Of a stretch of 64,000 nt of DNA, positions 43,924-63,474 are shown piece by piece. The position numbers and the translations under genes were made by a program. Below the pieces are notes generated by a model. That model was given only the letters and a program-made list of their open reading frames with translations. It was not told the DNA's origin and did not search any database. The stretch comes from Glomus cerebriforme (lineage: Eukaryota > Glomeromycota > Glomeromycetes > Glomerales > Glomeraceae), in the NCBI GenBank assembly GCA_003550305.1, contig QKYT01000302.1, forward strand, positions 63,422-127,421. The letters are read 5' to 3'. Each line of letters starts with the position of its first letter. The stretch's first letter is position 1.

Positions 43924-44872
43924 ATGCTCGTTCAGTTTTCTTTTCTTCTTTTCTTAATCACTAATGCTTACGGTGAGGTTCTTCCCAAATTTTTCTTTTT
44001 TAATCATTTTCTTAATTAATAAAGTTAAACTAACTTTCTCTGCAATGTTTCTTTTTATTGAATGAACAATTCGATAAACGAAGATTTCCAAAAATTACAA
44101 ATGTGACTTTTGGNTTNAATCTTCGACCGGTTATTTAATAGCCGCGAAGACGTTCTTTCAAGCTTCCGCGAAAGTGAAGTGCCGGAATGGTCTTGGTAGC
44201 GAATCCGGACAAATCCGGGGAACCGCTCCTTTTTAGGATACCGGTCCGGTACACATTCTCCGGTTNATGTCTCTNGGGGTATGCATATTCAACTATGTAA
44301 CTCTATTCCCAGACATGTTAACTATTTAGCGACGATACTAACCTTAATTCTAAGATTATTTCTTTATTATTTTTGAATTATTTTTTTTTTCTTTTGAGAA
44401 AGGTGTTATTACTGGCCTTTCTTTAGTTAAATTGAATCTTTCAATTATAATTTAGATATGATCTTATCCAAAATTTTTTGAGTTGCAAATGGTGTTGACG
44501 TCCTCGTCGTGCAACTTGGGTATTGATATTAATACTTATTAATATTGATAGCGAACAAACACCACCAAAAATTTATTATTCCCCTTTTATCTGGGTAAAC
44601 ATAGTCAAATCCACTCTTCTAGGGAGTATAAAAATTTTTAGAAATATATTTATACAAGTAATATATAATTTTTTTGATTGATTTAAATTTCCAACGAAAT
44701 CGACGAAATCTGCAATTAACTAATTTAATATACAAAAAAATTTCTACCCGATTTTGAGGTAAGATGATATTCATCGGTACTTTGTGTTTATCGTTGGAGT
44801 TATCGTGGGAATTACTGCAGTAGGTATCAAATGTGGGCATCGAATATGGTTCGAAGTGCAATAATATGATGA
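43924..44872 (+). CDS. Possible fragmentary secreted or single-pass membrane protein
   Basis: A short first exon at 43924-43972 encodes a clean signal peptide (MLVQFSFLLFLITNAYG) and ends at a GTGAGG donor. Further coding-like pieces on the same strand include DKRRFPKITNVTFG near 44078-44117 and EQTPPKIYYSPFIWVNIVKS near 44549-44610. At 44766-44872 a membrane helix with a basic tail is followed by a stop (RYFVFIVGVIVGITAVGIKC, then GHRIWFEVQ). Together these would be a type I membrane protein, but ambiguous bases at 44114, 44117, 44266 and 44275, and stops between the pieces, prevent a continuous model. It could equally be unrelated fragments. Confidence 0.25.
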
Positions 44873-45767
44873 TGTACATTTTAGGAGAGTAATTATTTAA
44901 TTATTTCTTTTATTTCTTTTATTATTACAGCAAATAATTTAAATTCTTATAATTTTTTTGGTTACGTTCAATTTCCTTGAATAAAGGTATATATATTCGT
45001 GTAATTTTTTTAAAAACAATAATAGATTTATTGGATAATAAAAAATATAACAAATACAGATCTCTAAAGGAGATTATAAAGATAAAGAATCGCAAGTAAA
45101 TTAATTCTTCCTTATTTAGTTATTCACTTATTCTAATAAGATTATTCCTGATTTTAAAAAGCTTGTCTCTCATTTAATGCGTGACTAGTTGTTTTTCGGT
45201 TTTGTACATATTCTGCATTAAAAAAATAGAGTAAATTGATCTTTCTTCATCTATCTAAACGTAAGATTGAATAAGCGGATTATTGTGTAGCCGATTAAGC
45301 AAATTTGTTAATAATAGAAAATGATCAAAAGAACATTTTTTAAAATCACTCGTATTTTGAAATTTTTTTAATAAATTTTTCTTGTTGAAAAGTACATTGC
45401 AAAGAAACTTTCTTAAATATTCTTAAATAATATTACTAATTTAAATAAATAATTATTTAAGTAAAAAAAAAAGTGTTTACATGCAAATGATTTTTTTAAG
45501 AAAAAGAATGTGTTTCATATTTTCATGGAAAGTATAATATAAAAGAAAAGAATGATACAGAAGAAGCTAGAGAATTCCTCCATCGCCACTAGGATGGGGA
45601 TGGTCGTCGAGGTCGTTCATTTGAGAATAAATAATTAATTCAAGGGTAATATCTATTTAAATACTAAGATAATAAATAATCTATGACTTTTTCCAATAGT
45701 TTCTCTAAAATATTTGTTATCTATAAAAAATGTTATTAAGATCAGTATAACATACTGTACCTTCACC
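44873..45767. other. AT-rich intergenic region
   Basis: No gene seen. A short GC-richer stretch at 45566-45630 reads on the minus strand as MNDLDDHPHPSGDGG and could be the last exon of the RBR ligase remnant that follows. Confidence 0.35.
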
Positions 45768-46350
45768 AGTAACAGGACCAATAACATTATTTTCTAAGAG
45801 ATTAACATCTCTTGCTTCAGGGTGTGATTTTAAAAATTCATTAAAAATCTTTTATAGTAGCTTCTTTAATAACTTTTTCTCCAACTTCAGTTTTATATAA
45901 ATCACATTTTTTACATTTTTTACATTTTTGTCCTGGCATAGGACGAAAATGATCGCAAACTATATTGATAAGCAAAAGTTAGATTTTGGCTGTTTGACAA
46001 AAAATTCGAAAGTTTAATTTTAGAGTAACTTACAATGTACATAAGATTTTTGTCTTAAATCTTTTCTACATAAATAACACATAACATAACCATATCTGCA
46101 TGTCATTTTATTACATCCATTAGCTTTTGTGAATGTTATATGACATTTTGGACACTAAAGTTCAAAAAGAGAAAATTTAATTTCCTTAAAAAGAATTGAT
46201 CACATTTTATTTATTTCATTTTAATACTTACAGTTTATTTAACTTAAACTATCTTGTTATTGTTCGTAACATTTATGAAAAGGTCTACTTTCCCTGCTAC
46301 GTAACAAACAAGATATTTCACCGCATTCAGGATTTTGACATTTAAATGAG
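45768..46350 (-). pseudogene. RBR ubiquitin ligase remnant, RNF216/TRIAD3-like
   Basis: Three exon-like pieces on the minus strand keep good splice sites (46154-46034; next exon from 45959). The first (46350 down) reads SFKCQNPECGEISCLLRSRE and then meets stops. The second carries RING2-like CPKCHITFTKANGCNKMTC and RYGYVMCYLCRKDLRQKSY. The third reads CDHFRPMPGQKCKKCKKC and then DLYKTEVGEK. GCNKMTC contains the catalytic-type Cys of RBR ligases, but a later zinc-binding Cys has become Tyr (CRYG instead of the usual CRCG). A surplus T near 45859 shifts the frame. The upstream part (RING1) is missing where a 148-base inverted-repeat element abuts the exon. The normal protein would transfer ubiquitin through a Cys thioester. 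Confidence 0.75.
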
Positions 46351-46351
46351 G

Positions 46352-46499
46352 AACTGGCGTAGTACTAGAGTGGTTCTATTAGTTTGCTAGTTTCAGACCA
46401 CCTATATGCCAGCTTGGATGCCGAGTTATTATGTTCAAGGCTCTGGCCGAAATCATGGAATAGTGTTGGCTGAAATTAAACGAGTTTACTGCGCCAGTT
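46352..46499. mobile_element. 148-base MITE-like element inserted at the RBR ligase remnant
   Basis: The ends AACTGGCGTAGTA (46352-46364) and TACTGCGCCAGTT (46487-46499) are inverted repeats matching at 12 of 13 positions. The interior is GC-richer than its surroundings and has no coding capacity. The coding homology of the RBR ligase stops at the left end, so insertion here probably broke the gene. No target duplication could be proven. Confidence 0.65.
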
Positions 46500-46699
46500 A
46501 TATGACTTTTGCTGACTGCGGGTCAGAGAATTCGAAATGCAAAATATAAAAAACTATGCATTACTATAGCCAGCTTGCACCATCTTGCAACCCAACTATT
46601 ACCTATTTGTTGGCAGTATATTGGTGGGATGTTGTAAGCACTTCTGAGGCCCGATCGTGGTTTAATCTTGGACGAGACAATAAGTATGCTATTTTTTGA

Positions 46700-47110
46700 G
46701 CGTCACTAATATCACCAATTAGTATATGGAACCAGTGACAGAACTAGTGACGGGTTTGCTATCTTTCTTAAGATTATTAGGCTATTTTATTTCTTTTTTG
46801 ATTAGTATCACTAGTGTCACTAGTAAAAAGTAGTAATTTCTAGAAAAAAAATTAAAATTTTTCTATGCTATCCCTATGGTCTATATGGGATATAATATGA
46901 TGTATCTATGGTATATGTGTGATGTATGTATGTACAGTATGTTAAAAAAATAAAAAAAAGTTAAGAAACTCAGATTTTTTCCAGTGACAGTAGTGATACC
47001 AGTGACATTTATCAAGAAAACTTTCTTTCAGCCTAGAATTCCTAAAGAGCCTATCATCTGTGTCACTAGTTCTATCATGAGCTTTTTTTCCTGTGATACT
47101 AGTGATAAGT
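46700..47110. repeat. Cluster of ACTAGTGA/AGTGACA motifs upstream of the replication-recombination element
   Basis: Related words recur in about 400 bases: CCAGTGACAGAACTAGTGAC (46733), AGTATCACTAGTGTCACTAG (46804), CCAGTGACAGTAGTGATACC followed by AGTGACA (46981), TGTCACTAGTTC (47061) and GTGATACTAGTGATA (47093). The core is the palindrome ACTAGT flanked by GA/TC. The array lies directly before the primase gene and could be iterons or recombinase binding sites; that role is inferred from position. Confidence 0.5.
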
Positions 47111-47170
47111 TGTATTATTTTTGTTTACCTCTAAATTACCTACCAGTATCTGCATCGAAGCTAACTTAGC

Positions 47171-47443
47171 CTACTTTTTCTGATGATAATGTTCTCTTTT
47201 ACGGTGCTTTCTAGTATGTGGATCATAAAATCCATATTTGGAATAAGTTCGTTTACCACATTTAATGCAAGGTATATATGAGGAAAAATTCTGATGTATT
47301 TGGCACTTTTTTGGGTGAAAGCACCCCCCGATTACAAACTTCTCCAGTCCTGAGAATATATGGACATCGATAAAATGCCATTTTTGATAACTATGAATAG
47401 TTTGATTATATATCAATTTATATATTTCAGAATTAATTTTCAT
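47171..47443 (-). CDS. Small Cys/His-rich open frame, doubtful
   Basis: A 90-codon open frame whose last part reads CIKCGKRTYSKYGFYDPHTR, then KHRKREHYHQKK: two Cys followed by several His and Lys, as in a small zinc-binding peptide. An upstream GCFHPKKCQIH could supply more ligands. It is divergent from the primase gene and lies between it and the repeat cluster, so it could be a cargo or regulatory gene of the element. The first 40 residues overlap AT-rich sequence and are not convincing. It may be a chance frame. Confidence 0.2.
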   Translation of the reverse strand: MKINSEIYKLIYNQTIHSYQKWHFIDVHIFSGLEKFVIGGCFHPKKCQIHQNFSSYIPCIKCGKRTYSKYGFYDPHTRKHRKREHYHQKK

Positions 47444-47506
47444 TTTGAACTTTTTTCTCCCGAAGTATATACTTTCTCTCGAACTGTATATTTGTTATAT
47501 AACACC

Positions 47507-50500
47507 ATGACCCAATCTGAACTTTTAGAGTTCTCTGACGCCCCCGCCCCATATGAGTTTAAAAGCGCCAATGTAAGTGAATACCGTTATAAAATTTGGG
47601 ATGATAGTGTCAGACTAAGACATTTTTTTGGCGCAGACCATGAGGATGGAATAGAAGCCATACTCTTAGAACGCGAAGGCCATTTCTTATATGAATTTAT
47701 TAGTGGAGATGAGCCACTCCATCCTTTCATAAATTTTGATCTACCAGTAAAAACCTTAGATGCTATTACTCCCAAGCTCTCAGATATTCAGGCTAAAAAT
47801 ACACTTTATAATGCTTTTAGCAGAGATGTCTGTCTAGAAATATTCCCAAAATGGGATAAAAAACTATATTCATTGCTGATAGTAGTGATGCAAAAAAAAT
47901 ATCTCTCCATGTCTCAACTTTCGGTATGAGACTTCCAAGCATCGCTCAAATTGCAATATTTACTGAGCTTGTTCATAAAAAACTCCTGCAGGATTACAGG
48001 ATAAAGGTATTGTTGACAATATAGCAAACAAATGATCATTTTTCTTGTGAATGCTTGGATCACCCAAATACAATGAAAAAATAGAGGAACAAATTCGTAT
48101 AATAAAAAAAACTATTTGTCCAAAAGATGGATCTATCTTTGACTTCATAATCCACCCACCCAATAATGAATCAGAAATCATTGACAACAGTTCTCTCTTG
48201 ACCATTCCAGAAATAGAAAGTGTAAAATATGCTAACATAAGTAATGAGACAATCATAGCTGAATTCGAACTAGTAGAGACATTACTTCAAGAGGCTGGTA
48301 TCAAAGGGTATAGTCTCTCATATCCATCTGAAAATTTTCCTGATAAATTTCCACTATTGCACATCTCCATCACACTGTCCAATATGTGACCGAGAACATG
48401 ATAATGATAATGCATATATTATTCAAAATAAAAAATCTTACAGCTTTTTCTGCTACTGAGCAAACAATGATAGGGAACTCAGCTTTAGAAAACCTTTGAA
48501 AAAAACTTACTATTAGTAAAACTGCATTGGATCGAGAAAGGAAACTTCCAACTCCAGTAAAATTAGAACAACCCAGAATTATGAATCCAAAAGATCAATT
48601 TGTATTTTGGAACTTATTACTCATGTGTACTTTAGGTAGGAAATTCTCCATGCTGAAGTTTATGAAGCTATCCAAGCAACAGTTGCCTGTGTGCAAGGAA
48701 CTTCGAAATTATGGTTTCTTAAGCATAAAGATGCAGAAAATGGCCTTTTCTTTGATATAAGACCTAAACTAAAGCTTGCCGATTATAAGATTAATATAAT
48801 TGAATATGGTGGAAAATCGATAAAGTTAAAATCATTGATAAACCAAGCAGATACTAAAGGTCTAATACTTTATGAAGATTATAATTTCCTTCCATATCTA
48901 CCAAATGCTCCCAATTAGTTATGCATTTCTTCAAACTTTTTCTAGGATTTTTGGCTAAGCCAGCACCAGAAATTAATAAAGAAATTATGGATCTAATTCT
49001 CTGGCATACAAAGAATATAATTAGTGATGAAAATGAGAAGCTTCATGAATATCTTTGGAAATGGTGGGCATATTTAGTGCAGAAGCCAGAGTCAATCTTA
49101 GTCCTAAAGTCTAAACTACAGCAGTGTAGAAAAAATATTATTACTGACTTTATTGGTGACAAAGTTCTAAGAGAACATCTTCATTATGCTACATCAGATT
49201 TGAAAAAAATTCTTGGGCGATTTAATAATGCCATCCAAGCTCGAAAGCTTATTATTATGAATGAGACTGGAATGTCTAGCGGGGATTGGCATAGATTTAA
49301 TGGACATCTCAAATCTCTTATAACAGAAGAAATGGTGACTATAAAGTGCAAAGGTTTTGAATCTAAATGACTAAAAGATTTTGCTGGGTATATGATTACA
49401 AGCAATCAGGATGTCCCGCTTAAAATAGATATAGAGGATTCTCGTGTAGTCTGTTTTGATGTTTCTTCATGATGTAAAGGAAATACAGCATATTTTAAGC
49501 GACTAGAGAAAGTTCTTGATCATCCCGATGCATCAGGAGTAGTTATGAGATATCTTCTTAGTCTTGATCTCTCAGATTTTGAATCACAAGAAATTCCTGT
49601 AACTAAAATGAAATCAGATATAATGCGAGACTAGCTACCTAATCCCATTCGATTTATAATTGACTATATTGCATCTCGAGCTGAGAATAGTGTAGTTGAG
49701 TTAAGTAAGAAAGCATTATATCAGAAGTATCTTGAATGGTATGAAGAGAATGGCGAAAAGCCATTTTCTAATAACATTATTGGAAAGAAATTCTCAGATA
49801 TTGGTATTGATAACAAATAAGCACGAACAGGTGGTGAAAAAAAGGAATGGCAATACATTCTCGACCGCTCCAAGATCATAGCTAAGCTTCGTAAATCTGG
49901 TCTAGGAGATATGGAAGAATTTTTTGATATACCTGAGTTTGCTAAAGTGAACCTCCCTCAGCTTGACTTACCTGAAAATAAGACTACAGACATACCCATA
50001 TTCAATGTACCAGAAATTATTTCTCCAAAAATAACTCTGCATCACCCAGAAAAGAATACGCCTCCACCTAGCACTAGTAAAAATAAGAAGGTGGATAAAC
50101 AGGATGGGGAAATCCAGGATCTTTTCAACTATGTGGCAGAAAAAACTGAAGCTCCAATCGCCTCAACATCTGGAACATCTGAAACTACTAAGGCTTCTGA
50201 ACCATCTGAGTCAGTAATCGATAAATCTGAAACCAGCAAACTTTCCTAGCCTATCAAGCATATCAGTAATGTGTTGAAAGCACCTAAATCCAGTAATAAT
50301 GAAATATTATCTATGAGAACTCAGCGAGAAGAGCGTCTCAGAAAATGGGTAACCGATCATAGTGAAGACCCTAATAAGTTTATGATGATTACAGAAAAAG
50401 ATGTCAACTTATCTTGAAAGTTTCGAGACAGGATGATGGTGGATGCAGAAGTCATCAAATTTGCTAGAGAAAATAAGCTGGACCTGAATGATTTATTTTA

Positions 50501-50600
50501 CATGACTAAAATGGAAAGGTTAATAAGCAAAGAAATATATCTCCAGAAGTTCAAGAATATGAAAAAACCTCAGGAGTATATTTACGATGACAAGAAATAG
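47507..50600 (+). pseudogene. Decayed primase-helicase gene: AEP-type primase plus SF3-like helicase domain
   Basis: The likely start is MTQSELLEFSDAPAPYEF. The N-terminal part carries FLYEFISGDEPLHPFINFDL, DAKKISLHVSTFGMRLPSIA and MLGSPKYNEKIEEQIR, in the style of archaeo-eukaryotic primases. A zinc motif follows (CPICDREHDNDNAYIIQ, then FFCY). From 48921 the helicase-like part reads LWKWWAYLVQKPESILVLKS, a Walker A-like KLQQCRKNI at about 49110-49139, then MNETGMSSGDWHRFNGHLKS, AGYMITSNQDVPLKI and DYIASRAENSVVELSKKAL. This is the layout of viral and plasmid primase-SF3 (DUF5906-like) proteins. A low-complexity tail (50.0-50.25 kb) and a short terminal domain end at 50600. The gene has several frameshifts (about 47870, 47982 and 48700) and many in-frame stops. 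The usual GK of Walker A is RK. Not functional as read. Confidence 0.75.
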
Positions 50601-51059
50601 CAAAAAAATGTAAGTATACTCCAGGAGAATGGTATGCTTTGGTAATGAGCGAATAAAAGCAGGATAATAGTATTGGTAGAGATGGGACTTTCTTTCAGCT
50701 TAGCGCTCATTCTTTACAACTAGGTGATATATAATTCCAAATTATTATTATTTTTTTCACTTATCTTATCTATCCACAAATTTTAAATCAATGAAAAACA
50801 TATCCCGGCCAGAGTGGGTGGTTTCATAGAGACCCTACAATAAATTATAATATTCTTTTCTTTCTCCCTAACCCTCTGAAAACTTTTACCGACTATGAGA
50901 TAGTGAAATGTCAGAATATTTTTTTCAAATTGAACTTTTTTGGATATAGAATAACCTAAGAGTTGCACATAATCTAGTTACTTCACAAGCTATATTCACA
51001 TAACCATATTTGCAATTGTAACAAAGTATGTTGCAGAGCACAAACTCAATAAAGATATG
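50601..51059. other. Spacer between primase-helicase and recombinase genes
   Basis: About 460 bases with no clear gene. It contains the end of an old 3' untranslated part and the likely promoter of the recombinase. AT content is similar to that of the flanking ORFs. Confidence 0.35.
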
Positions 51060-52159
51060 AGTAATGAAGAACTTAGTTAGCACGTCCCAGAATTATTTGA
51101 ACTTTTATCAGATAAACTGAAAAGAGACAAGGGTCATTAGCGCTTTCAAAAAGGGTATAATTTTAGCAGAGAGCAGGCATTTGTATTAGTCTCTGATCAA
51201 AGAATTTGTTGAAATAGAAGTCGAGTATTCCCAAAAAAGGAGGGAATGAAGCAGGAGAAGTTAATATATGCAGTGCCAAAGGCACTTGCCAAGTATCTGA
51301 TATCATTCCAGATGGAAAAACTATCGAAAGTATAACCCAGCATATTGTGTTAGCAAAGCTAACTGAAAAAGAAGTAAAGATGATAGCCAAAGCTTTAACT
51401 ATAACGTCCCCTAACCCTGTCGCCACTACATCCCATCTTAGTAGGCTCTGAAGAGAGTTGCGAAAACTTAATATTCCAGAAAAAATAATCTCTGCTATAT
51501 TAGACAACAAAACAACCTGTGCATCTAATAAGATTCAAAAGGAATGTAGGGTTCAATGTGAAAATGAAGGAATTGATTTTCCAGATCACTTTTCATTAAA
51601 ATCTATTAAAGAAAGGTTAGATTTGTATGATATGTCTAACACACCCGATATGCAAGCCCTAGCCGATGTAATGATCATGCTTTGCATCCGTCCCGCTGAA
51701 ATTAAAGACTTGCGCATTTCTAATGGAAGTGTAACTGAATATTCAAAAAATTGAGATCAGTAGAATAATCCTCAGGTATTTAGATCATTAGAAAGAGATG
51801 AAGAGCAGGCTAAACTTCTTCTTACTTGAATTCAGGATGCAATTTCTTTTGAACAGTTAAGGGATCCAGGAGTGCCAGGAGTTAAATAGTTTAATACGTT
51901 TCTGCAAAAAGATAGATTTCTTCCTGAAACTGGTAAATCACTCCTCCCTAGCTATTTGTGCAAATTAGGAGTAGTATTTGTGATCGTATTGAATGGTGTG
52001 AAGAATTTATCAGAAGCTATGACCATCACCAGTCAAGCCCTTTGACATTCATCAGACAACCATGCCTTCCCAGCACAAAACTATACTATAGTCAATTTTC
52101 AAAAAAGAGGACAGCCTTATGATCAGGTAATGGCATTCGAGCTCTTCGACAAAAACTAA
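51060..52159 (+). pseudogene. Decayed tyrosine recombinase (Crypton/YR-like)
   Basis: The N-terminal helical part is spread over two frames (AEVNICS-like start, then ITQHIVLAKLTEKEVKMIAK, LRKLNIPEKIISAILDNKTT). The catalytic domain follows: LADVMIMLCIRPAEIKDLRI, with the box I Arg at 51689-51691, then LPSYLCKLGVVFVIVLNG, VKNLSEAMTITSQAL, a TGA at 52043, HSSDNHA, and QNYTIVN with the candidate nucleophile Tyr at 52082-52084. The order Arg, His-rich box, Tyr is that of phage-integrase-type tyrosine recombinases. Stops at 51752, 51761, 51827, 51887 and 52043 interrupt it. It would insert and excise the element together with the primase-helicase gene, which it follows on the same strand. Confidence 0.7.
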
Positions 52160-52246
52160 TCACATACAGTAGATGGATTAGACAATATTTATTAAATTTT
52201 ATTTTTTCATTCGCCTAAGATCTAGCATATATAAAATATCACAAAA

Positions 52247-52711
52247 ATGGTAGCCGATCAAAATCATTTACCTGATAGTATACATAATGAGCAAGAAGTT
52301 ATCAGGCGTACAGAAAATATAGCCAAGTTATTAGGGCTAGATGAGCAAAATGTAGAAGTATATAAAGCACTCTCTAGACAGATTTTGGAGCTTGAAAAAC
52401 AATTAGAAAATTATCATTTTGAATATATAAAGCTTAAAAGAAAGGTCAATTTATTGGAAGCTGAAATAGAAGATCTGGACGAATATATAGATAGGGAAGC
52501 TGTAGTTGACTTAATACATGAAATAGTTCCCTTGCTGATTGGTAAAAAATTGCCAAAAAAAGGCAAGGTTAATCTTGCTACTGTAGATTTCTACGAGTCA
52601 AGTTCGTCTGAAGAATCAGAATCAGACGTAGTAAAAATAAAAAAGATTATTCATAAGCAACAAAGAAAGTGGTTAGCTGATGAACAGCAATCTAAGCCCA
52701 ATCAATGTTAG
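52247..52711 (+). CDS. Intronless coiled-coil protein of unknown function
   Basis: An intact 154-residue frame. Residues 40-85 form a coiled coil (QILELEKQLENYHFEYIKLK, then RKVNLLEAEIEDLDEYIDRE). A Ser/Glu-rich acidic stretch (YESSSSEESESD) and a basic tail (IHKQQRKWLADEQQ) follow. I do not recognise a domain. It starts 88 bases after the recombinase stop, on the same strand, and has no in-frame stop although its neighbour has several. It could be a young cargo gene of the element or an independent lineage-specific gene. Confidence 0.5.
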   Translation: MVADQNHLPDSIHNEQEVIRRTENIAKLLGLDEQNVEVYKALSRQILELEKQLENYHFEYIKLKRKVNLLEAEIEDLDEYIDREAVVDLIHEIVPLLIGKKLPKKGKVNLATVDFYESSSSEESESDVVKIKKIIHKQQRKWLADEQQSKPNQC

Positions 52712-52809
52712 TCCAGACACCAATTAGCATCTGGCTAGTCAATATACAGTATAATCCCAGCATAATATTTTTTCTGATCGAAAGGTATTCCAGTTATATA
52801 TATAAAACA

Positions 52810-53219
52810 ATGCATACAAATAATTTACTTGATCTTCTCCCACCTAAACTAATACTATTCATTCTAAAGTATCTTCCAGTACAGAATCTAAAAAAGTGTT
52901 GCAGTATAAATGATATATGGAAAAGTGAGGCAAATCTTAAATGGACTAAAATAAAAACTCTTTTTAATTTTCATACTATGTCATTGGTTCAAGGCAAAAA
53001 TACAGTCAAGAAATTTTATTCGAAGCTGAAAAAGTATAACAAGAGTTTTGGCTATAATGAAGAATTCATTAAAAATGCATTATTAAAAGGATTATCACGT
53101 GAAAATATGATTAAAGTTTTAATGGGTGGTTTACAAGCACTTGCATTAGATGAGATACTGGAGAGGCTGGAGAGTGATTGCGTAATTTTTCCAAAGGTGC
53201 TTTGTTATTTTTTCATTTA
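52810..53219 (+). CDS. F-box protein, short, unknown C-terminus
   Basis: Starting at MHTNNLLDLLPPKLILFILK, the F-box motif (LPPKLILFILKYLPVQNLKK, CCSINDIWKSE) occupies the first 50 residues. About 85 residues follow without a recognised repeat (WTKIKTLFNFHTMSLVQGKN, ENMIKVLMGGLQALALDEIL). A GTGCTTTG donor after PK (53196) and an acceptor near 53252 would join it to the next segment, giving one protein with two F-box-like parts. Unspliced, the frame ends at 53219. The 53.26 kb segment contains several stops, so the intact protein may be only this part. Confidence 0.45.
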
Positions 53220-53258
53220 AAGATACAACATATAAAATGGAATATTTAGCCAGAGGTG

Positions 53259-54470
53259 CTTCGCATGGCACATACAGACGTTTTTATTATACCAGAACTA
53301 TTAGAACATATTTTACATTTTTTAGTGATAGATAAATCCCTCTATCCTACTCTATATATTTCCTGATTGTGATACAGATGCGGTGCTCCTATTTTATGGA
53401 AATGCATTGAGCTAAAGGGAAATGATCTGAATTATAGACATTATTTTCCAGAAGATTATAATTATTGTGCAAGAAACCGTACTCGTTTGAAAAGATTTGT
53501 AAAAATAATGTGTGAAAAGCATAAGCCAGCTTATGTCTCGAATCTAACTCATTTAGAAATTACTTATTATCATTCACTTTCAGATAAAAAAATAAAAAGT
53601 ATTGTGGATACATTTCTGAATATAATTCATTTAGATTTCAAAAATAGTATAAGTTTTGGTGATAGATCACTATTTATAATAGCGGAATCATATCCTAATT
53701 TAAGATATCTCAATTTGTGGGATGCTTAAGTAATAACTGATAAAGGCTTATATGCAATTGCATGATCATGTTGTAAATTAGAATATCTAAATATTTCTTT
53801 CTGCAGAAATATTAGCGATAAATCTTTATTTGAAATCGCGAGAAGTTATCATGTATTACAAGAATTTCATTTTGCTGAAACACGTTGGATAATAGATAAA
53901 TCTATAAGTTGTATCATAAACTCATGCCCAAATTTATGTAAGTTTGACATTGCATTTAGTCATAGAAAAATCGAGGATGCTAGTATGTTAAAACAGAGAT
54001 GCCTTAATATCAAGTATCTTGATTTTAGTAGTATTATGAGTTTTGAAATGAATGAATTTATTGAAGCTATCATCAAAACATTTCTGAATTTAAGACATTT
54101 AGAGATCAATGGTAATGATATCTGTGATAAAGTTACTGAAGCAGTGGCTTATACATGTCATAAATTAGAATATCTTGACCTAAGTTGTTGTTCATTTGTC
54201 GGCGAACTATCAATTTGTAATATTATACGTTCCTGCCCAAGACTTCAGCATCTTAAACTCAGATATTGTAATATTACCAGTATGACTATCAAAGAAATTG
54301 CTTGCTCATGTCTTAATTTAAAATTTCTAGATTTGAAAGGATGTGAAAATATTAGCAAAAAAGCCATGAACCAGCTAAATCCAAATATTCATATCAAAAA
54401 TTTTGATGAAGAATACTGCTCTGATTCAGAATCTTCTAGCTCTGGCTCTGAAACTAAATCAGAGTGCTGA
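53259..54470 (+). pseudogene. F-box/LRR protein gene, broken by nonsense changes
   Basis: The frame from 53259 (MAHTDVFIIPELLEHILHFL) gives an F-box followed by the standard post-F-box stretch (YRCGAPILWKCIELKG). At least nine leucine-rich repeats of the AMN1/FBXL type follow, for example [55 protein letters not shown] and [18 protein letters not shown] Ser/Glu-rich tail ends at 54470. Stops occur at about 53361 and 53367 (an expected Arg and Trp), about 53727 and 53763. All fit C-to-T or G-to-A changes. The rest of the frame is remarkably well kept. Relatives act as SCF substrate receptors. Confidence 0.7.
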
Positions 54471-54977
54471 TCACATAATAGGTCTGAATGTCATTTTCGC
54501 ATATTAATTTCACATATATATTCGCTAACCAATATCTTTATCTTTTTTCCTAAACAAATGTGAGAAAAATGTAAAAGGAAGTCTAGTTGCAACACAGGAC
54601 TTACCATAAAAGTAAATAGTGATGACAAAAGCATATGTTATAAAAGGCTGAGAGACTCGCAATTTTGAGATTGCTAGGCGTAAAACTAACTATATGTCTT
54701 TCTGGTAGATCTCCATATGAAAAGGTATGAGAATTCCATTTGCATGTGCTTTCACAGAGTTCTTGGCATCAGACGACAATATTAATTATGCCTCATGTCT
54801 CCTTAACTTTTTCCTAGCAAGATATAAAACATGTAGTAGTATGTGGAAGTTCAGCCAACTTTTTGCAAAAACTCTTGTAAAATAACGCAAAATAAAGTAT
54901 ATATATACCCTAAATTATGTAATGTATAGGAGCGAGTTTTTTCTCACTATGAGCTTTGTATTTAGAAAAGTGAAAAA
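54471..54977. other. Intergenic, no feature seen
   Basis: About 500 bases between the F-box/LRR remnant and the first Crinkler-like frame. No coding signal. A start-proximal AT-rich stretch with ATATATATACCC near 54898 could be a promoter. Confidence 0.35.
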
Positions 54978-55280
54978 ATGGCCAATATCACTCTCAACTG
55001 TCTTATTGTCCCAAAAGGAGATCTCATGAATATTTCATTTATTAAAGTAATGCAAGCGATTACAATTAACTCAAGCAATCATGTTAGCAATCTAGAAACT
55101 GCAATTCAAGACAGACTGGAGGTACCATTCAGCAATACACTTCTCAGACTTTGTAAGATTCAACCCAGTAGTATTGTTAAAATTGAAATGCATCGGCAGA
55201 GCTTAATTTCTGCTTTTTTTCCTAAAGAATTTCTAGCAGACCACTTTAACATTCTAGTTTACTCTCTATCTCAATTGTAA
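54978..55280 (+). CDS. Crinkler-like N-terminal domain, diverged
   Basis: A 100-residue frame opening MANITLNCLIVPKGDLMNIS. The opening MxNITLNCL, a middle INSSNHVSNLETAIQDRLEV and a final FPKEFLADHFNILVYSL correspond in order to the ubiquitin-like header of Crinkler (CRN) effectors: MSxITLxCLV, an ELRxxIKExK helix, then FxxxPADxHIxIIV. No C-terminal effector domain follows before the stop. It is in tandem with a much better header 250 bases downstream. It may be a degenerate or decoy copy. Confidence 0.5.
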   Translation: MANITLNCLIVPKGDLMNISFIKVMQAITINSSNHVSNLETAIQDRLEVPFSNTLLRLCKIQPSSIVKIEMHRQSLISAFFPKEFLADHFNILVYSLSQL

Positions 55281-55530
55281 TTTTCAGTATCATGTAGTGT
55301 TATAGTCACAATTTTTATGTATTGTAGGCCAGTTTTAGGCAATGTTTTTTTATTTCATAAATAAAGTATTATTTTATTGGTACATGAAAAATGGGTTACA
55401 TAAAATGATGTAATCCCTGTGTAACATAAAAATATATATTAACATTTGCGTTCCCACCAGAAATAAAACTCTATTTTTTCTCTGGACATAACACATTTTT
55501 ATCTGACCCAAATATCCCTATAAAAGCGCC

Positions 55531-55869
55531 ATGTCTATTATCACTCTTAGCTATTTAGTCGTAAGTGAAAACCCTTATAAAAATACTTTCGATGGTAATA
55601 TTGAGATAAACAAGTCTATTAGCAAATTCAGGAATGCTATCAAGGAGAAGAAACAGAATGACTTCACTAACGTTGACGCTGACAAACTCAAGCTATGGAA
55701 GGTTGACATTTCCCTCGAAGAAGAAAATGAAAAACTTAATCTCATTAATACAAAAATAAACATGAATATCAAGGACGAGCTTGGTGGTGTGGAACTGCTT
55801 TCACTTTCGAAGATTAGCAAACATTTTACCTCCCAGCCAGCTGATGAACACATATATATAATCGTATAG
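55531..55869 (+). CDS. Crinkler-type (CRN) N-terminal ubiquitin-like domain
   Basis: The 112-residue frame starts MSIITLSYLVVSENPYKNTF and continues with INKSISKFRNAIKEKKQNDF, NVDADKLKLWKVDISLEEEN and GGVELLSLSKISKHFTSQPA, ending DEHIYIIV. This is the conserved header of CRN proteins as found in oomycetes and in large numbers in Rhizophagus, which directs the attached C-terminal toxin-like or effector domain. A TATAAAAG sequence ends about 7 bases before the ATG. The frame ends in TAG (a CAG-type position), beyond which further codons read on (HSVKTKEVHCIITYGCKS), so the gene was probably longer. The nuclease-like remnant at 56.0 kb may have been its C-terminal part. Confidence 0.7.
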   Translation: MSIITLSYLVVSENPYKNTFDGNIEINKSISKFRNAIKEKKQNDFTNVDADKLKLWKVDISLEEENEKLNLINTKINMNIKDELGGVELLSLSKISKHFTSQPADEHIYIIV

Positions 55870-55990
55870 CATTCTGTTAAGACGAAAGAAGTTCACTGCA
55901 TCATAACATATGGGTGTAAATCAAAAAAGTTTCATGGACTGTAACCTGCAGACAAATAACCTTATCTGCTTTTAAGTCTTAGCTTCGCAC

Positions 55991-56916
55991 ATGTTTCACA
56001 TTTCCGGATGGGAAGAAGGTGAACATATTGTTATAAATCATGAGTGTGATGGTAATGAAAAGAAAATTATTTGTTTGGTTAATGATGAGGATTTGGCAAG
56101 TGTAATCTGGACTCAAGGATTCAAGGTAGAGTTTTCAATCATCATGAATACATGTAAGTATCAGTTTGCTATTTTTTAAGAATAAATCATGATAGGTGTG
56201 ACATATTCCTAACAAAAAATAATTTGGATGTTTTATAGCGCAACAGCCATTTTCATCGTGAACATTTTCCCAAATTAAGACATTATTCAGGTTAACAGCT
56301 GATAGTTATATTGATCTTCCTAGGTTCAATGAAAAGTTAGCTAACACAGCCAATTACGAAAAGATATTGGAGCACGTTTTGAAAGATATATATAGTTATG
56401 AAGTATAAGACTTGCATTTACATCACTAGTGTGAACGAAGCAACAAGATGTGAATTTATTTCTTCCGTTCTTCATGGTGTTGTCTCTTGCTATGATAGTG
56501 AAGTAAAAGTATGTCCAGAATATGAGTTATCTGAAAGCTATGGTAAAGGGCTAATGGATTGGGTTATCAAGATTGGAGATACGATTATTATCATTACCGA
56601 GGCTAAAAGGGAGGATATTAACCAGGATGTTAGCCAGAATGCAATTCAGTTACAAGCTTCATCTCAATGTAATAAAAAGAAACACATATACAATGAGGCT
56701 TTGCGTGAAGATGTAATGTATGGTATCATTTTGACAGGGGTCGACTGGGTCATAATTAAGTTAGTCACTACTGGCGAATGTAATGACAATGATAATGGGA
56801 ATGTTGTGATATTATTGAGTTCACGAATACCATTTACTTTTCTTATTAACGAAAGTGTGTTTGATAAAAGTTTTATGCTTGAAAAATTCAAGAATTTGTT
56901 CGGGCAAATTAAGTGA
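55991..56916 (+). pseudogene. PD-(D/E)XK nuclease-like domain gene, broken
   Basis: A first segment (MFHISGWEEGEHIVINHECD to SIIMNT) ends at a GTAAGT donor at 56155. An acceptor at about 56239 continues as QQPFSS, a TGA at a TGG-type position, then TFSQIKTLFRLTADSYIDLP. A frameshift near 56395 leads to the well-kept C-terminal part (56398-56916): NEATRCEFISSVLHGVVSCY, KVCPEYELSESYGKGLMDWV and IIITEAKREDINQDVSQN. The order E...D(WV)...EAK is the core of PD-(D/E)XK nucleases. This same arrangement is known as a CRN C-terminal domain in the lineage. A catalytic role is inferred. Confidence 0.6.
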
Positions 56917-57147
56917 ATGTTTGATCGCCAAATTGAATCGCAAAAATCATTGAAGTGGGTAAAAACAGAAAATAAATAAAATAGTCTTATCTTTTTTGAA
57001 AAAAATAATTGTATGTATAGACATTAGTATAGAAAAAAATTGGCATGTATTACAGGCAAAGTTCTGATCTTTGTATTTATTTTTTATTTCTGTATTAATA
57101 AAGCAAGTCTTTTACATTCACAACATAATATTGAATAATTCATATTC

Positions 57148-58818
57148 TTGTATAAAATTTTATTGATGTCAAATACTCCATCCAATAATTCATTAAGGGA
57201 ATTAAATACAAAGCTCTTAGCTGAAATTGGTGAGCTTAGGAAGAAATTTGCTAAAATTGAAGGTAAGAATGGTGAGCTTAAGAATGAGAATGCAAAACTG
57301 AGACAGATTATTGAGGAGAATGCCAGGCATGATGCTGAGAATGCTGAACACAAGATCAGAATCGAGGAATTGGAGAAAAATAGTGCAGATATTTTAGCTG
57401 AGAATGCTGAGCTTAAAGCTGAATTAGCCAAACCAAGACATGATTTTGATTCTTCTAATCTCACGAGACCTCTGCAACCACAGCACGTTACTAATGTGCA
57501 AAACTTATGTTCTGTTGGAGAAGAAGAGATATCAAAGGTAACAACTGTATCACAGCCAGATACTTCTGATCCTGTAAAAGATCAGCCTATAAATGGAATA
57601 CCTAGTAATAACACAAACATCAAGTCAATGGAGGAAAGGAAGATGGACACTTTCTTAGGTGAGGTATATAAGAAAAGGGTTAGCAATGAAATTAGGCAGA
57701 GGAATAGGAAAAAGAAATTATTATGTGAATCAGCTATCCAGGACTCTTCTTCTGTAATGAAGGACAAAAAATCTCAATCACATAAGAACAGAGAAGTGGA
57801 AAATATTGTACAGGATGCATTTGATTTCACAGCTACTTCGACACCTGAGAAAAATCATGTGACTAAAATTTTCATGACGGGAAACCTACTTTCCGTCACT
57901 GAAAATACTGATAAGAAAAATTCTGTAATTATGTTATCTGTAGCGAAAAGCAAACCATTACTAAATTTAGCCTGTTTATATTAGAAAGCTTGCGATGCGG
58001 AAAAGCAAAGAATTAGGACCAATCAAGATGAAATTTTATGTTGGTATCATTATGTTATAGAATTTGTTAATCAAGTAAAAAATGTTATGAAAACTAATCG
58101 AATTGATGAGAAAAAAGTGAAAGGGCAAATTTATGATTTTATTATTACGCAACTCGGTACTAAACATAACACATTACTAAAACAAACTCAAAGAGTAAGA
58201 AGCATATACAAATTATTTGAGAAAATAGGAACATATAGTGCGAATTCTATATCAGAATTATCTGATAGTCAAATTCAAACTTTTGTTGATTATTTCTCCA
58301 AGAATCCCAACACTGAATTACCCGATGATCAAGAAAGCTCTATTATCGATTCTGAAGAAAAGATTTTGGATGACCAGAATAATGCATTGAAGGTCTTGTC
58401 TTCAAAGGAATCAACTACTATCCCATTAACCCATGTCTCTGCTGAAGGTGCTAAAGGCAATTTTTCTGATAATTCCAAAGAAGAAATGTGGTTTGATGAA
58501 AATATGTTTTTCAATGAGATGAATCCCAGTAAAGTGAACACTGTCACTTCAGACGATGATGTGTATTTTGGTAAGGCGAATGAAGTTAATAAGTACGATG
58601 GCGACCCCAATTCAATCAATGATGACTCCGATTCTGATAGTAATTCTGAAGATGAGATTCCAGACGATTCAGATGATGATGGATATAATAGATATGGTGG
58701 ATATGGTGGATATAATGAATATGGTGAACATGATAGAGGTTATTACTATCGTGACAGAAGATACGAAAGGAGAGGGTCCCCAATGATGAGTCCTATTATC
58801 TCTCTGGTAACCATCTAG
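57148..58818 (+). pseudogene. Repetitive coiled-coil protein, one in-frame TAG
   Basis: A frame from MYKILLMSNTPSNNSLRELN (a likely real start is the Met at 57166) opens with a long coiled coil built of repeated AENAEL-type units (LLAEIGELRKKFAKIEGKNG, ELKNENAKLRQIIEENARHD, ADILAENAELKAEL). A hydrophilic Ser/Lys-rich middle follows. At 57982 a TAG (CAG-type) interrupts it, but the same frame continues without further stops: MKTNRIDEKKVKGQIYDFII, LSDSQIQTFVDYFSKNPN. It ends in an acidic run (DDSDSDSNSEDEIPDDSDDD) and a Gly/Tyr-rich tail (YNRYGGYGGYNEYGEHDRGY). I know no function. The style recalls multi-copy coiled-coil genes in this fungal group. Confidence 0.5.
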
Positions 58819-59006
58819 GAGAATTATCAAGCGAAATCACATATTCGCATAGACTGAAATATCATATAAATTATTTCTTTTTTTTCAAATCACGTAGGTG
58901 GCTTAGATATTGTGTACAGTAATTCTTCTCCGCAGTATTTATGTCACATGTTTTATAATATTTTTTTCCTTCAAGATTTTGAATTCACTCTTCTAAAGTC
59001 AAGAGT

Positions 59007-59534
59007 ATGGCTCGTAAAAAGAATAAAAGACACATTCAATCCATACCATCGGCAACTTCAACATCAGCCAATGAGACCCTGTCCAGAAGCCTCACAGTAA
59101 TGGATACGGAATTGCAAGAACTTATTCGTCAAGGTCTAGTAGTTGATGAAGTTCACGAAGTATTATCATATAATCAAAAAAGTATGCCTTGGGTTGATAA
59201 CTTTATTAATCTTTCGATTGAGCTCAAAAACCAATGCGATGATCCAAGAGAAAAAGCATATCACGCCTTAATGAGAGAACTCTTTAGCATGAAGGCATTT
59301 CGTGATGCATCCAGTCAAGATGATCTCATTTCTAAGGCAGAATATTATGGAAATAAAATAGACAACTGCATAGCAGATTTCATTATTCGAATGGGAAAAG
59401 GTAAAAAAGGGTGGTTGAGCCGTGAATCAGTTGCAACATTGCGCCAAGTGACAACTACGAAAAGAATAATGGATTTGCTTAATGTTGCTGAAAATAAAGG
59501 CTCTGAATCGCATAGCCAAATAATCATTTTTTAG
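59007..59534 (+). CDS. Intronless 175-residue protein of unknown function
   Basis: The frame is intact, starting MARKKNKRHIQSIPSATSTS. A basic N-terminus is followed by a helical part (MDTELQELIRQGLVVDEVHE, LSYNQKSMPWVDNFINLSIE, EKAYHALMRELFSMKAFRDA) and a C-terminal helix (ESVATLRQVTTTKRIMDLLN). No domain is recognised. Balanced composition and absence of stops suggest a real gene. It follows the coiled-coil gene on the same strand after 190 bases. It may be another cargo or lineage-specific gene. Confidence 0.45.
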   Translation: MARKKNKRHIQSIPSATSTSANETLSRSLTVMDTELQELIRQGLVVDEVHEVLSYNQKSMPWVDNFINLSIELKNQCDDPREKAYHALMRELFSMKAFRDASSQDDLISKAEYYGNKIDNCIADFIIRMGKGKKGWLSRESVATLRQVTTTKRIMDLLNVAENKGSESHSQIIIF

Positions 59535-60244
59535 AAGTTTACATATATGTCAAATACTACGGATTAGTTTTGAATTGTAATTATTTTTTGTTATCTCGTA
59601 ATAATAAAGCTACAATACATCGTTAAAAATCACGTGGTGCGTGACTTCTGCAAAAATACCGCAGTACATTTATTTTTAGTGGATCTATTAATACCCGGCT
59701 AAGAAAATTATTTTTGTGTTACTTGTGTAGCTTGTCATTTTTTTACTCAAAAGTTCTATTATAAATTAATTAATGATTTGTGAAGATTGATCCAGAGTCC
59801 CTGAGTGCCAAAGATCATGATGTTAGAATGAAATGAAAATAGAAATTGGGAGGTGGATAAGCAGATTGACCCAATTGCCACGGAATAATTTTTATTACCT
59901 GTTAGCATTAGCCAAAGACGCGTAATCCCAATTAGTATTCCATTTTTGGTGAGTTAATCGGATTTGTTATATTAACGAAATTTTTCCCCAAAGATCTTAG
60001 ACCCACTGCGAATTATATAAAAAGGTGTCGCCCCAGTTAGTGAATCCATTTATCCACCTTGTGCAATTAAGAAAATGAAAAATTAAGCGAAACATTCAAA
60101 CTTACCATAATTTACATCATCAATATTAACAATCAAACAGACTCCTATATTCCGCAAAGCATTAATAAGGTATGTTGATTTATTGCTCGACTAGCTTCTT
60201 GAAATATGTCATCACGATGTTAATCTATTTTTCCTCCTCTATAG
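59535..60244. other. Intergenic, no feature seen
   Basis: About 700 bases. A TATATAAAAAGG sequence near 60013 could be a promoter for a downstream transcript. No coding signal was recognised. Confidence 0.35.
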
Positions 60245-60592
60245 ATGTCCCAAAATAAAACAGACATATTACTCTTCTTACTATATATCGGCATTTTGAT
60301 CTTCGCCGAGAAAATCACTGACCATCATCACGCATATAATAGGCGCAGTAAAATTACTCACATAAATCTCGTCACATGCAACAGCACAGCAAAAGTCTGG
60401 CGCAGTGCATCAAAAAATTTTTCCGGCATAAGCATCTTCACGTGCCAAATTCTTAAAACTTTGCGCAGTATCGTTCGGCAGAAAAAATCAAGTAATCAAT
60501 TCCTTGTATATGAGGCGGAATGTAATATTGTGAAAACGAAGTATATCGGTAAGTGTGAATTGGAAATACTGTATCATTTTTTTTTACCTTAG
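60245..60592 (+). CDS. Doubtful open frame with N-terminal hydrophobic segment
   Basis: A 115-codon frame starts MSQNKTDILLFLLYIGILIF, a hydrophobic segment like a signal anchor, then becomes basic (RSKITHINLVTCNSTAKVWR). A second frame runs straight on after the stop (60593-60847: LISWIYAVDSKLLNLGEVFL) and has similar composition. No family is recognised. It may be part of a decayed gene. Confidence 0.2.
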   Translation: MSQNKTDILLFLLYIGILIFAEKITDHHHAYNRRSKITHINLVTCNSTAKVWRSASKNFSGISIFTCQILKTLRSIVRQKKSSNQFLVYEAECNIVKTKYIGKCELEILYHFFLP

Positions 60593-61270
60593 TTGCTAAT
60601 CTCCTGGATTTATGCTGTAGATTCAAAATTACTTAATCTCGGTGAAGTTTTCTTGCAGGGAATATTATTTTATATTGTCTGTGTGGGTGGGAGAGATCAC
60701 AAATTCTGTAAATATGGGTGGGATAATTTATTTCGGAAACCTAGTGTAGTAAAAGAGTGTGGGGTTGAGAATCTCATAGTTAGCAATAGAGATAGAAATA
60801 AAACAATTAGTTATAGAAATTATTTCGAAAGCAAAGAAATAACTTGATGCTGGGACTCGCATTAAATGGCCTAGGATCCGCGTACTCCCTCCCTCTTTGA
60901 TAGCATCATTTATTTCTTTTGCTGACTCTAGTTTTTTTTATGTATCTGAAAAATTAATAAAGATTTCTATATTGAGTCTATTATTTTTAACGTGCGTTAC
61001 GAAGAGCCTCTGAATAAGGTTGCACATGTGCTCAATACTGTAGTACACATCATAGATTCTCATGACCTTCATCTGATATAAATTGTAAACGCGTAAAACT
61101 CGCGCCGATTTTTCCGCGCTAATAAGAAAATAAAATTGAAAGACTACCTTTGCTAAGTTTGGGCGATTACTATTTTTTTTTTGCATTATCGACGTTTTTT
61201 TCACCATCAAGTAAGTTTATAAAAATTCTCGTTGTAAATTATATCGATAGTTTTGTTAAGCGCGAAAGAA
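60593..61270. other. Region with a short open frame, no supported gene
   Basis: Contains the open stretch up to 60847 noted above, then AT-rich sequence. Nothing else stands out before the GC-rich direct repeat. Confidence 0.3.
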
Positions 61271-61452
61271 GTGTCTGTGGTAGGGCTAAGACCTATCAGA
61301 AGCCAGTTACGGCGAGTCGCCATCAAGCGGTGGCCGGCTGATTTCGTTGCATCAGAACTATTATGGGTTTGTTATCATGAAAGATGTCTGCGGTAGAGTT
61401 GAGAGCTATCGGAAGCTAGTTATAGCGAGTCGCCATCGAGCGGTGGCCGGTC
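61271..61452. repeat. GC-rich direct repeat of about 70 bases
   Basis: Copy 1 (about 61271-61340) and copy 2 (about 61383-61452) share TGTCTG(T/C)GGTAG(G/A)G(C/T)T and GCGAGTCGCCATC(A/G)AGCGG followed by TGGCCGG. Most differences are transitions. The repeat is far more GC-rich than the surroundings and lies just upstream of the gene that starts at 61486. It could be a regulatory or RNA-derived element, or part of a small transposable element. Confidence 0.6.
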
Positions 61453-61485
61453 TTAAATGAAGGACTGCCATTTTTTATTACTTGC

Positions 61486-63474
61486 TTGATGCTTTCGTTT
61501 ATGGTAATACTCACAATTCTCTTTTTTGTCAAAGCAATAATGAGAGGGGAGAAAAGAAAAATTTCTAGGAAGAATCGGCGAGAAATGGATATAAACTGGA
61601 TCCTGAGTTCTCAAGAACCAACTCCAATTGCTTTTTTTCGATTAACCCATCCAACAGTACGTGCACGAGCTATAGAAAAATATAAGAAATGTTTTGATCT
61701 TGCTCTAAGTCGTAGTGAGAGTGATAAGCTTGATAAACTTATAGCCGTGAATAATGACGTATGTATTTAAGTATGTTGACAATTTTGACGTAAAACAAAG
61801 TATTTCTAATGTCTGTCTCTTAAATAGGAAGAAACTTTACAAAGAGATTGGGAAACTTGGTTAAAAGAAAAAAAAGCTGTACGTCTATTCCACATATTTT
61901 TGAGTTATAGTTTCGTGGTTTCTAAAATTCAAATTTATGCTTTAGATCCTAGCTTGTCGAGCAAGCCATGATGCAGGTCTGCGCATTCAACAAGATTTTA
62001 CATCAATTATGACCAATGTAAGCCATTTATTAATTAGTATGATCTTGGAGTTCTTTCAACGTTACTTAAAAATATTTTTACCGTAGATTGTCAGTTGTGA
62101 GGATGGAGCTATCGCGGAGATATCTGTTAGAGAGTCCTATTTTCCTGTATTATCATTGATTTTCATTATTAATGCTTTACTATCGTTATGATCAGAAACG
62201 AAAGCATGATGATCCATCAACACCCAATAAACCGGTAATTCGACCGGAAATGAATATCATTTATGAAAAAAGTCAAATTTGCTATTGAAGAAGAACCTGA
62301 AGATGAAAACTCGATTGAGTCAAAAAATTCAGAGGAGAAAGGTAACAAGAATATTGATTGGAGAAAGTGGTTAGAGAATGTTCTAGAGGTCAGTAAAATG
62401 GCTACCTATGAGAAATAATTGTCAAATGATTATACTTATTTTTTCTATTGTCATACAGTCCTCGATAGAGGAAATCAGGGTAAAAATTTTGAGTCCATAT
62501 ACTACAAAAAATAAATTTGATGATACCATGATACGATACATTGGAAAGGTGTTGATGGATTTGTAAGTTGTTTTTATCTTTTTTTAGTATTTGCGATATT
62601 TCATTCTAATCCATGTATTATAATAATAATATCAATTAATAATTAGCATCAACAAAATAATTGATGTTCCCGGTCATGTTATGTCTATCGATGAAGTTGA
62701 GCGAGACTGGATATTCAACAAAATATCTCCGCTATTTACATTCCTACAAGCAACCTTTACAAATAAAATATTATTCCATTGGTAAGTGCTATTTTCTTCC
62801 GGAAATTTTCAAAACTTATAAAACCTACCTACTTGTGTACTCAAACTTATAGGATTGAACATGACATCGAGCCTATACATGAACGTCTTGTCGCCGAAAA
62901 CAACAGTTCAAACAAAGGAAGAATGAAAGCGGACATAGTAGGAGTTCGTCTGTCAGACGACCGTCAGGTTGTGTTCCTAGAAATGAGCGGTGCACCAACT
63001 GACTTCTTAAATACTCATACTGTGGGAGATACGTATAAAACAGTTCAAGAAAGAATTGATTCGTTAAATTCTATACTCCTAAACTTTTTGAACTATGATG
63101 TAAGATACGCGAAAAAAATACGTTCATTAACGATCCAAGGAATCAGTGAGTATTATTTTTTTGGTTGACTATTATTCAGACCAAAATCATTTATATCTTT
63201 TTTTGACTGTTATTTCATAGGAGATCGTCTTACGCTCAGAACTATTTTCCTAAGAGGAAAGAAAGACTACGCTGATGAGGAAGAATTGTCTGTGGTCTTT
63301 CCGCTTAGTTGGGAATTCCGCTTTTAATTTCTTGAAGTTTTTGAACTAATGGAACGTGTAATACAATACATTTTAGAGTACCCTAACGTCGTCAAAGAAC
63401 TAATGAAACATCCGGCAAAATCATCTGAATTTTCCATTCGACACTGCATTTCATGTGATACTGATCAAATCTAA
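61486..63474 (+). pseudogene. Multi-exon lineage-specific gene of unknown function, frameshifted and stopped
   Basis: The gene starts with a hydrophobic segment (MMLSFMVILTILFFVKAIMR) and has about ten exons with good splice sites (exon starts 61486, 61828, 61946, 62087, 62196, 62459, 62647, 62853 and 63221). Readable parts include THPTVRARAIEKYKKCFDLA, WRKWLENVLESSIEEIRVKI, DVPGHVMSIDEVERDWIFNK and RMKADIVGVRLSDDRQVVFL followed by EMSGAPTDFL. A frame change near 62265 and a TAA at 63325 (CAA-type) break it. After the TAA the same frame reads FLEVFELMERVIQYILEYPN and ends naturally at 63472. KADIV...FLEMS resembles the D...ExK spacing of a nuclease fold with the Lys changed, but this is speculative. 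Confidence 0.55.

Follow-up and report, generated by a model that had tools for sequence, protein, structure and literature searches.

We have analyzed a 64,000-nucleotide stretch of DNA from Glomus cerebriforme (referred to below as the window), which forms the right end of contig C417; the contig stops at window base 64000. From position 46348 onward the window appears to carry the decayed left-hand portion of a large mobile element found in the Glomeromycotina that is self-replicating and integrating and has an asfarvirus-like replication module, a reading to which we assign a probability of about 70%. The element is a real, repeated mobile unit and the window copy a decayed fragment of it: the genes that it contains, their linkage and orientation, its inverted ends and palindromic tips, two target duplications and the decay of the window copy are all observed directly. 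As we picture it, a full element would be about 27-45 kb long and bounded by inverted ends, each about 2 kb in length and tipped with a palindrome of 50-58 bp that can fold into a hairpin. The genes for a primase-superfamily 3 (SF3) helicase and, probably, for a tyrosine recombinase (YR) would lie at one end, reading inward, and an inward-reading gene for an asfarvirus-type family B DNA polymerase (PolB) at the other, with F-box/leucine-rich repeat (LRR) and Crinkler-like cargo between the two. We found no description of such an element in the open full-text literature (subscription papers, preprints and supplements being outside the scope).

Replication genes, a probable recombinase gene and their linkage

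An original prediction, made from the window alone, had described a primase-SF3 helicase combined with a tyrosine recombinase, and the motifs that it named (CxxC...H, KLQQCRKN, MNETGMSSGDWHRF, RPAEI and NYTIVN) were all located. The primase-SF3 helicase gene (47509-50600, on the forward strand, as are all window genes below unless stated otherwise) is broken into several pieces and has paralogues elsewhere in the host genome. Its helicase piece (48885-49367) matched DUF5906 in Pfam with an E value of 4.1e-11 (44 bits, cut-off 27.6) and contains a decayed Walker A motif, KLQQCRKN (49113-49136), and the Walker B region MNETGMSSGDWHRF (49257-49298). In a profile of the database relatives, the KLQQCRKN region was aligned to the NrS-1 primase-helicase (E 5.5e-14). 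A further piece (49635-49817) resembles the C-terminal domain Pox_D5 at 21.3 bits, against a cut-off of 21.4, and the paralogue L005 scored above threshold for both domains (DUF5906, E 1e-19; Pox_D5, 30.5 bits). In place of KLQQCRKN, L005 has TLQQCGKN, as do two of the three database relatives printed (P0133 and P0174; P0148 differs); TLQQCGKN itself departs from the textbook P-loop. A structural model (pLDDT 60) retrieved NrS-1 first (E 1.4e-8), followed by AsfvPrimPol, MPXV E5, SaPI5 and vaccinia D5, a match that is good at the fold level only. Thus, the gene is a primase-helicase of the D5/NrS-1 type, with both the DUF5906 and the Pox_D5 C-terminal domain; its helicase domain is like those of NrS-1 and the SaPI and poxvirus D5-type enzymes by sequence and by model, and it differs in its off-canonical P-loop.

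While the helicase half of the prediction was borne out, the archaeo-eukaryotic primase (AEP) half is suggested by its position and by a zinc motif, CxxC...H...C (48376-48453), that is also present in L005 and P0133. A Pfam search with this N-terminal part gave no match, and a comparison with solved structures gave a best E value of 0.031, to an entry of unrelated name. Among IMG/VR viral contigs the helicase piece had no relative, and the primase-helicase alignment found nine loci at 25-28% identity or less, six of which gave us the impression, from their frame layouts only, of being phages.

Downstream lies a broken frame (51218-52159) with RPAEI (box I) at 51689-51703 and NYTIVN at 52079-52096, the candidate tyrosine being encoded by 52082-52084. 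An alignment of its relatives has the pattern R, R, H, Y, in which H331 and Y343 are at least 90% conserved, and depositors had named four of the relatives (P0015, P0038, P0103 and P0111) integrase. From the motifs and a fold match that falls short of significance, we judge the protein very probably to be a tyrosine recombinase; here the motifs of the prediction stood, and the Pfam families listed include no recombinase. Nor was the captain-type DUF3435 among the 25 of 38 weak Pfam families listed. For five YR proteins PHROGs returned only families without an assigned function, the best at E 0.0033, and the YR alignment had no relative among IMG/VR viral contigs.

The decay claimed for the locus is evident: the recombinase frame contains seven stops, of which the last is its natural end and six are premature, and the primase-helicase gene is in pieces. 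Intact relatives had been anticipated elsewhere, and copies with longer open frames do occur in the host genome and in other Glomeromycotina. In the host genome (112.5 Mb, 1117 contigs) we found 51 matches to the helicase piece, 67 to the recombinase piece and 40 to the N-terminal piece, co-linear in many places. We merged matches into clusters (36 helicase, 62 YR and 46 PolB). A YR cluster lay downstream of 19 of the 36 helicase clusters, on the same strand and 2195-3361 bp away (chance, 0.04). The two genes are therefore parts of one element, as had been proposed, and not genes of always separate, unlinked loci.

The third gene came from another copy. Near the far end of the C796 element is a family B DNA polymerase (DNA_pol_B, E 2e-14), whose profile scored 1198 bits against structure 8ywg, which we take to be the polymerase of African swine fever virus, and 1189 bits against 9l8u/9l8t, and then 158 bits against a polymerase delta. 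By profile score, the polymerase is of the asfarvirus type. In Pfam, PolB protein P0241 matched PF00136 and PF03104 only, with no protein-primed PolB family, and in IMG/VR the best 80 of 544 relatives of the PolB alignment were at 24-33% identity. Where PolB lay within 45 kb of the helicase or YR genes, the arrangement was convergent at 10 of the 46 PolB clusters, same-strand at one and divergent at none.

The linkage points to other species of Glomeromycotina as well. Protein searches returned 451, 127 and 644 matches, and the organisms of the best 120 listed for each all belong to this group, a placement that we take from general taxonomy. In Gigaspora, Rhizophagus and Diversispora, genes of these kinds have neighboring locus tags or lie on a common contig. 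Adjacent tags are C2G38_2160557 (YR, P0093) and 2160558 (helicase, P0180), and RhiirA1_402625 (P0020) and 402626 (P0220); a single 70.8-kb Diversispora contig carries both Glove_207g8 (PolB, P0306) and Glove_207g24 (helicase, P0148). In R. clarus the YR, helicase and PolB proteins P0008, P0140 and P0327 are encoded on contigs of equal size (270,278), presumably one contig. An 899-aa frame in L008/L049 was rejected as an intact gene, as it proved to be an assembly gap of N.

Inverted ends, palindromic tips and a proposed mode of propagation

In C796 the sequence of the left end recurs in inverted orientation at the far end, with 93% identity over 808 bp and 89% over 943 bp, and the terminal inverted repeats (TIRs) of the element measure about 2 kb each. 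A TIR was found upstream on the same strand, at 0.5-9 kb, of 13 of the 36 helicase clusters (chance, 0.09) and of 17 of the 46 PolB clusters (chance, 0.12), and, at 3-12 kb, of 16 of the 62 YR clusters (chance, 0.16). The TIR list behind these counts comprised 40 of 40, 52 of 60 and 3 of 45 matches from three genome searches; the eight set aside from the second were fragments beside entered matches. Inverted pairs within 60 kb were present in C200, C205, C796 and C986.

A motif from the outer TIR matched the genome at 22 tips, as compared with none for the reversed control. Of these we fetched 20 (C1084 was omitted, and the right tip of C796 was taken from L069), and 13 had a palindrome of 50 bp in which no more than 3 of the 25 pairs are mismatched, as compared with 1 of 453 tiles of the window. 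The remaining seven had no full palindrome. C200 has a different palindrome, of 58 bp, which is perfect at the right tip and imperfect at the left. Two stretches form hairpins when folded as single strands, one of which includes just the inner part of the palindrome (z -4.8) and the other the whole C200 palindrome (z -12.6). The DNA flanking the tip palindromes is unlike between copies, and both of the elements in which the two tips could be read, which are about 27 and 45 kb long, are bordered by 5-bp target duplications: CCTTT in C796 and ACTTT in C200.

Asfar- and poxviruses use palindromic tips as origins or closed telomeres, and the tips of the element may serve likewise. The primase-helicase and the polymerase would copy the element as an extrachromosomal molecule, and the recombinase would insert it at a 5-bp staggered target. 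We infer that the element replicates itself, has an extrachromosomal stage and is integrated by the recombinase, and that its replication module descends from an asfarvirus-like virus. A bolder version, which we regard as doubtful, is that the recombinase acts as integrase and as telomere resolvase. The element would then exist as a linear plasmid in the nucleus, its hairpin ends covalently closed and formed from the 50-58-bp palindromes; its own asfarvirus-type polymerase and primase-helicase would copy it, and it would insert by its ends. Such a capsid-free, giant-virus-derived replicon, with F-box and effector-like cargo, would have spread through the Glomeromycotina.

Several observations weigh against our interpretation, and the identification of the recombinase is its weakest point. 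R212 and R302 are the majority residues at their positions in the YR alignment, yet are less than 90% conserved; no Pfam recombinase was among the 25 of 38 weak families listed for 44 YR members; and one relative, P0106, was deposited as a helicase-primase. The model of the recombinase is weak (pLDDT 60), and the first 12 Foldseek rows, all Cre chains, are versions of one protein with E values of 0.1 or worse. When the YR profile was compared by hhalign with Cre, lambda Int and a set of six integrases, no support emerged, but the comparison was powerless, because the positive control (the lambda set against Cre) failed too. As to the unit as a whole, a partner was absent in the range tested for 17 of the 36 helicase clusters, 29 of the 46 PolB clusters and most YR clusters. 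Only four inverted TIR pairs were found, two of them (C205 and C986) without clean tips: the end stretches of C986 have no terminal palindrome and C205 has degenerate palindromes only. The window itself contains neither a tip nor PolB.

Relation to giant viruses, Polintons and other elements

A 1.5-Mb asfarvirus-like endogenous region has been described in Rhizophagus irregularis, along with 15-33 PolB copies per genome of that species, which were suggested to reflect widespread, ongoing infection (Zhao 2023; PMC10640383). Both there and here, asfarvirus-type PolB is multicopy in a mycorrhizal genome. No D5 was reported for five strains, and the passages that describe the region mention neither a recombinase nor an inverted repeat (PMC10640383); here PolB belongs to a TIR-bounded unit that also has a probable YR gene and a derived D5 gene. 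If our reading is correct, the element may explain the giant-virus polymerase genes scattered in mycorrhizal fungal genomes. The PolB copies taken as signs of infection (PMC10640383) could then be pieces of a mobile element in which a recombinase and a derived D5 gene occur as well. A single fungal element would unite replication genes of an asfarvirus-like kind, a probable YR, TIRs with palindromic tips and host-interaction genes as cargo; the descent of transposons from viruses, and the way in which Crinkler-like and F-box genes spread in the Glomeromycotina, would become directly testable.

The alternative that survives best, and that we nonetheless consider unlikely, is that the copies are proviruses of an endogenised asfarvirus-like fungal virus that integrates by YR and whose capsid genes lie in unread parts or come from a helper virus. 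Size speaks against it, since known asfarviruses are far larger than the full copies of 27-45 kb. No capsid gene was found in the frames scanned, the copies having been read in part and with assembly gaps. The major capsid protein is reported as missing from five R. irregularis genomes in Zhao 2023 (PMC10640383). What such a provirus would account for is the asfarvirus-type PolB, the D5-like primase-helicase and the TIRs with their tandem repeats and palindromic tips; the ongoing infection inferred from PolB copies (PMC10640383) and YR-mediated integration as described for phaeoviruses (PMC13236599) also fit it.

The closest parallel to a YR combined with palindromic telomere sites comes from the phaeoviruses (PMC13236599). 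Their proviruses in brown algae have giant-virus replication genes and palindromic telomere-like sites in common with the element, together with a YR, which the element probably has too. They are described as having CC-dinucleotide insertion, a separate telomere resolvase, an internal palindrome and virions (PMC13236599), whereas the element has palindromes at both tips and 5-bp duplications. The hairpin telomere site of N15 and the phaeoviruses, at about 56 bp, is matched in size by the 50-bp palindrome of 13 of 20 tips and by the 58-bp palindrome of C200.

Several other systems share features with our element if its recombinase is taken as a YR. Starships, likewise, are large, YR-based fungal elements with short direct repeats and cargo; they are not known to have PolB or a primase-helicase. 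Cryptons are also fungal YR elements, but they carry a recombinase only and lack TIRs, whereas the element has a helicase, PolB and TIRs in addition; with these three linked, a Crypton identity was rejected. The polinton-like-virus or Crypton frame of the original prediction is not supported, in view of the TIRs with palindromic tips, the giant-virus-type PolB, the 5-bp target duplications of the two readable copies and the cargo. Some polinton-like viruses do carry a YR with an SF3 helicase, and TIRs, a DNA polymerase of its own and large size are common to the element and to Polintons/Mavericks. The type of polymerase differs, and so do the duplications, Polintons making 6-bp ones; a classical Polinton was rejected on the 5-bp duplications and for want of a match to protein-primed PolB. 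One could suppose a derived Polinton/Maverick or polinton-like virus in which the integrase was swapped for YR and the polymerase for a cellular-type or viral PolB, and the TIRs, the PolB, the Polinton-like size range and a recent Maverick expansion reported in passages on R. irregularis (PMC8647823) are in keeping with it. We find this very improbable, given the PF00136 plus PF03104 composition of P0241 and the 5-bp duplications of two copies, and given that neither an RVE integrase nor a capsid gene was found in the frames scanned, from copies read in part and with assembly gaps. Repeat studies, in the passages concerned, list Maverick, Crypton and other classes (PMC8647823, PMC11075540), and genes named helicase-primase were removed in one of them as transposon-related (PMC8647823). 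Finally, chance neighborhoods or segmental duplication of a host region with no mobile unit, which would suit the many partial copies and the partnerless YR and PolB genes, is scarcely credible in the face of an order, spacing and orientation that are fixed at many loci, unlike DNA flanking the tips, and target duplications.

Junction, decay and cargo of the window copy

On its left, the window copy interrupts host sequence at 46347. The flank (44894-46347) is a 77.6% match to contig C278, which continues past this point, and uninterrupted paralogues are present in C278 (L052) and C212; no Pfam family was found for the two long frames of the uninterrupted paralogue. The matches in C278 and C212 have identical coordinates, and the assembly may hold the same region twice. 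Inside the junction is the remnant of the left TIR (46348-47508), which is multicopy and whose inner limit is placed by reference to the C796 TIR. It contains, on the reverse strand, a 107-aa frame with Cys/His zinc-like motifs (47171-47494), similar to a frame at 1020-1355 of L047. Other copies reach about 0.7 kb further out than 46347, through 19-bp tandem repeats (L048) and the palindromic tip; therefore, the window copy has lost its outer TIR, and 46347 was dropped as the true end of the element. Position 46347 is within about 7 bp of the center of a second, imperfect inverted repeat in the TIRs of L054, L055, L058, L060, L064, L065 and L067.

On the right, the copy is cut off by the contig end. 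The span of 46700-52159 first given for the element is too narrow, because similarity to other copies extends from 46348 to about 58400 at least. The substitutions of the window copy look like deamination-type decay: 68 of the 88 private to it (in 48767-50200 and 50842-51712) are C>T or G>A, with a mild preference for CpG/CpC, and the corresponding fractions of private changes for three other copies over 48767-50200 are 14/38, 26/82 and 47/113. Classical repeat-induced point mutation was rejected, as the excess is not at CpA. Rfam gave nothing at gathering score in 44000-64000, and VIA-align nothing above the level that the tool calls common.

Downstream of the recombinase is a small coiled-coil-like frame (52247-52711), which follows YR in other copies too, and then an F-box/LRR gene (52810-54470), which we interpret as cargo. 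Its LRR assignment is firm (LRR_6, E 4.1e-12), and the names F-box and Crinkler are tentative because the scores fall below the cut-offs. A repeated segment (54493-54920) recurs after YR in other copies, as judged from genome matches. Crinkler-like frames (54966-56916; pieces at 54966-55277, which is N-terminal, and 56383-56913) are tentatively cargo as well (Crinkler, 17.1 bits against a cut-off of 24.6; HSDR_N, E 0.018). A same-strand YR lay upstream of the F-box/LRR segment at 14 of 22 loci entered, of the 54493-54920 segment at 17 of 26 and of the Crinkler-like segment at 14 of 40, and an opposite-strand YR at none of them. The F-box list includes the window's own locus and omits C303, C332 and C447, which have short matches only; the list for 54493-54920 omits the window and one short match in C730. 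Coiled-coil frames follow (57139-58818); as far as about 58393 they match the C12 copy at 90%, and this is the last stretch shown to be part of the repeated unit.

In the middle of another element, L080 (C860:224000-232000) contains what appears by eye to be a retroelement gag-like frame, and insertions may therefore nest within elements. Within the C796 element, L068:2097-3701 is a 535-aa frame with a P-loop and a below-cut-off match to nSTAND3 (E 1e-4); from its resemblance we presume that it may be a Crinkler-type ATPase. Finally, the window contains a separate repeat (60550-60966), matched at more than 30 places in the genome, that we have not assigned to the element.

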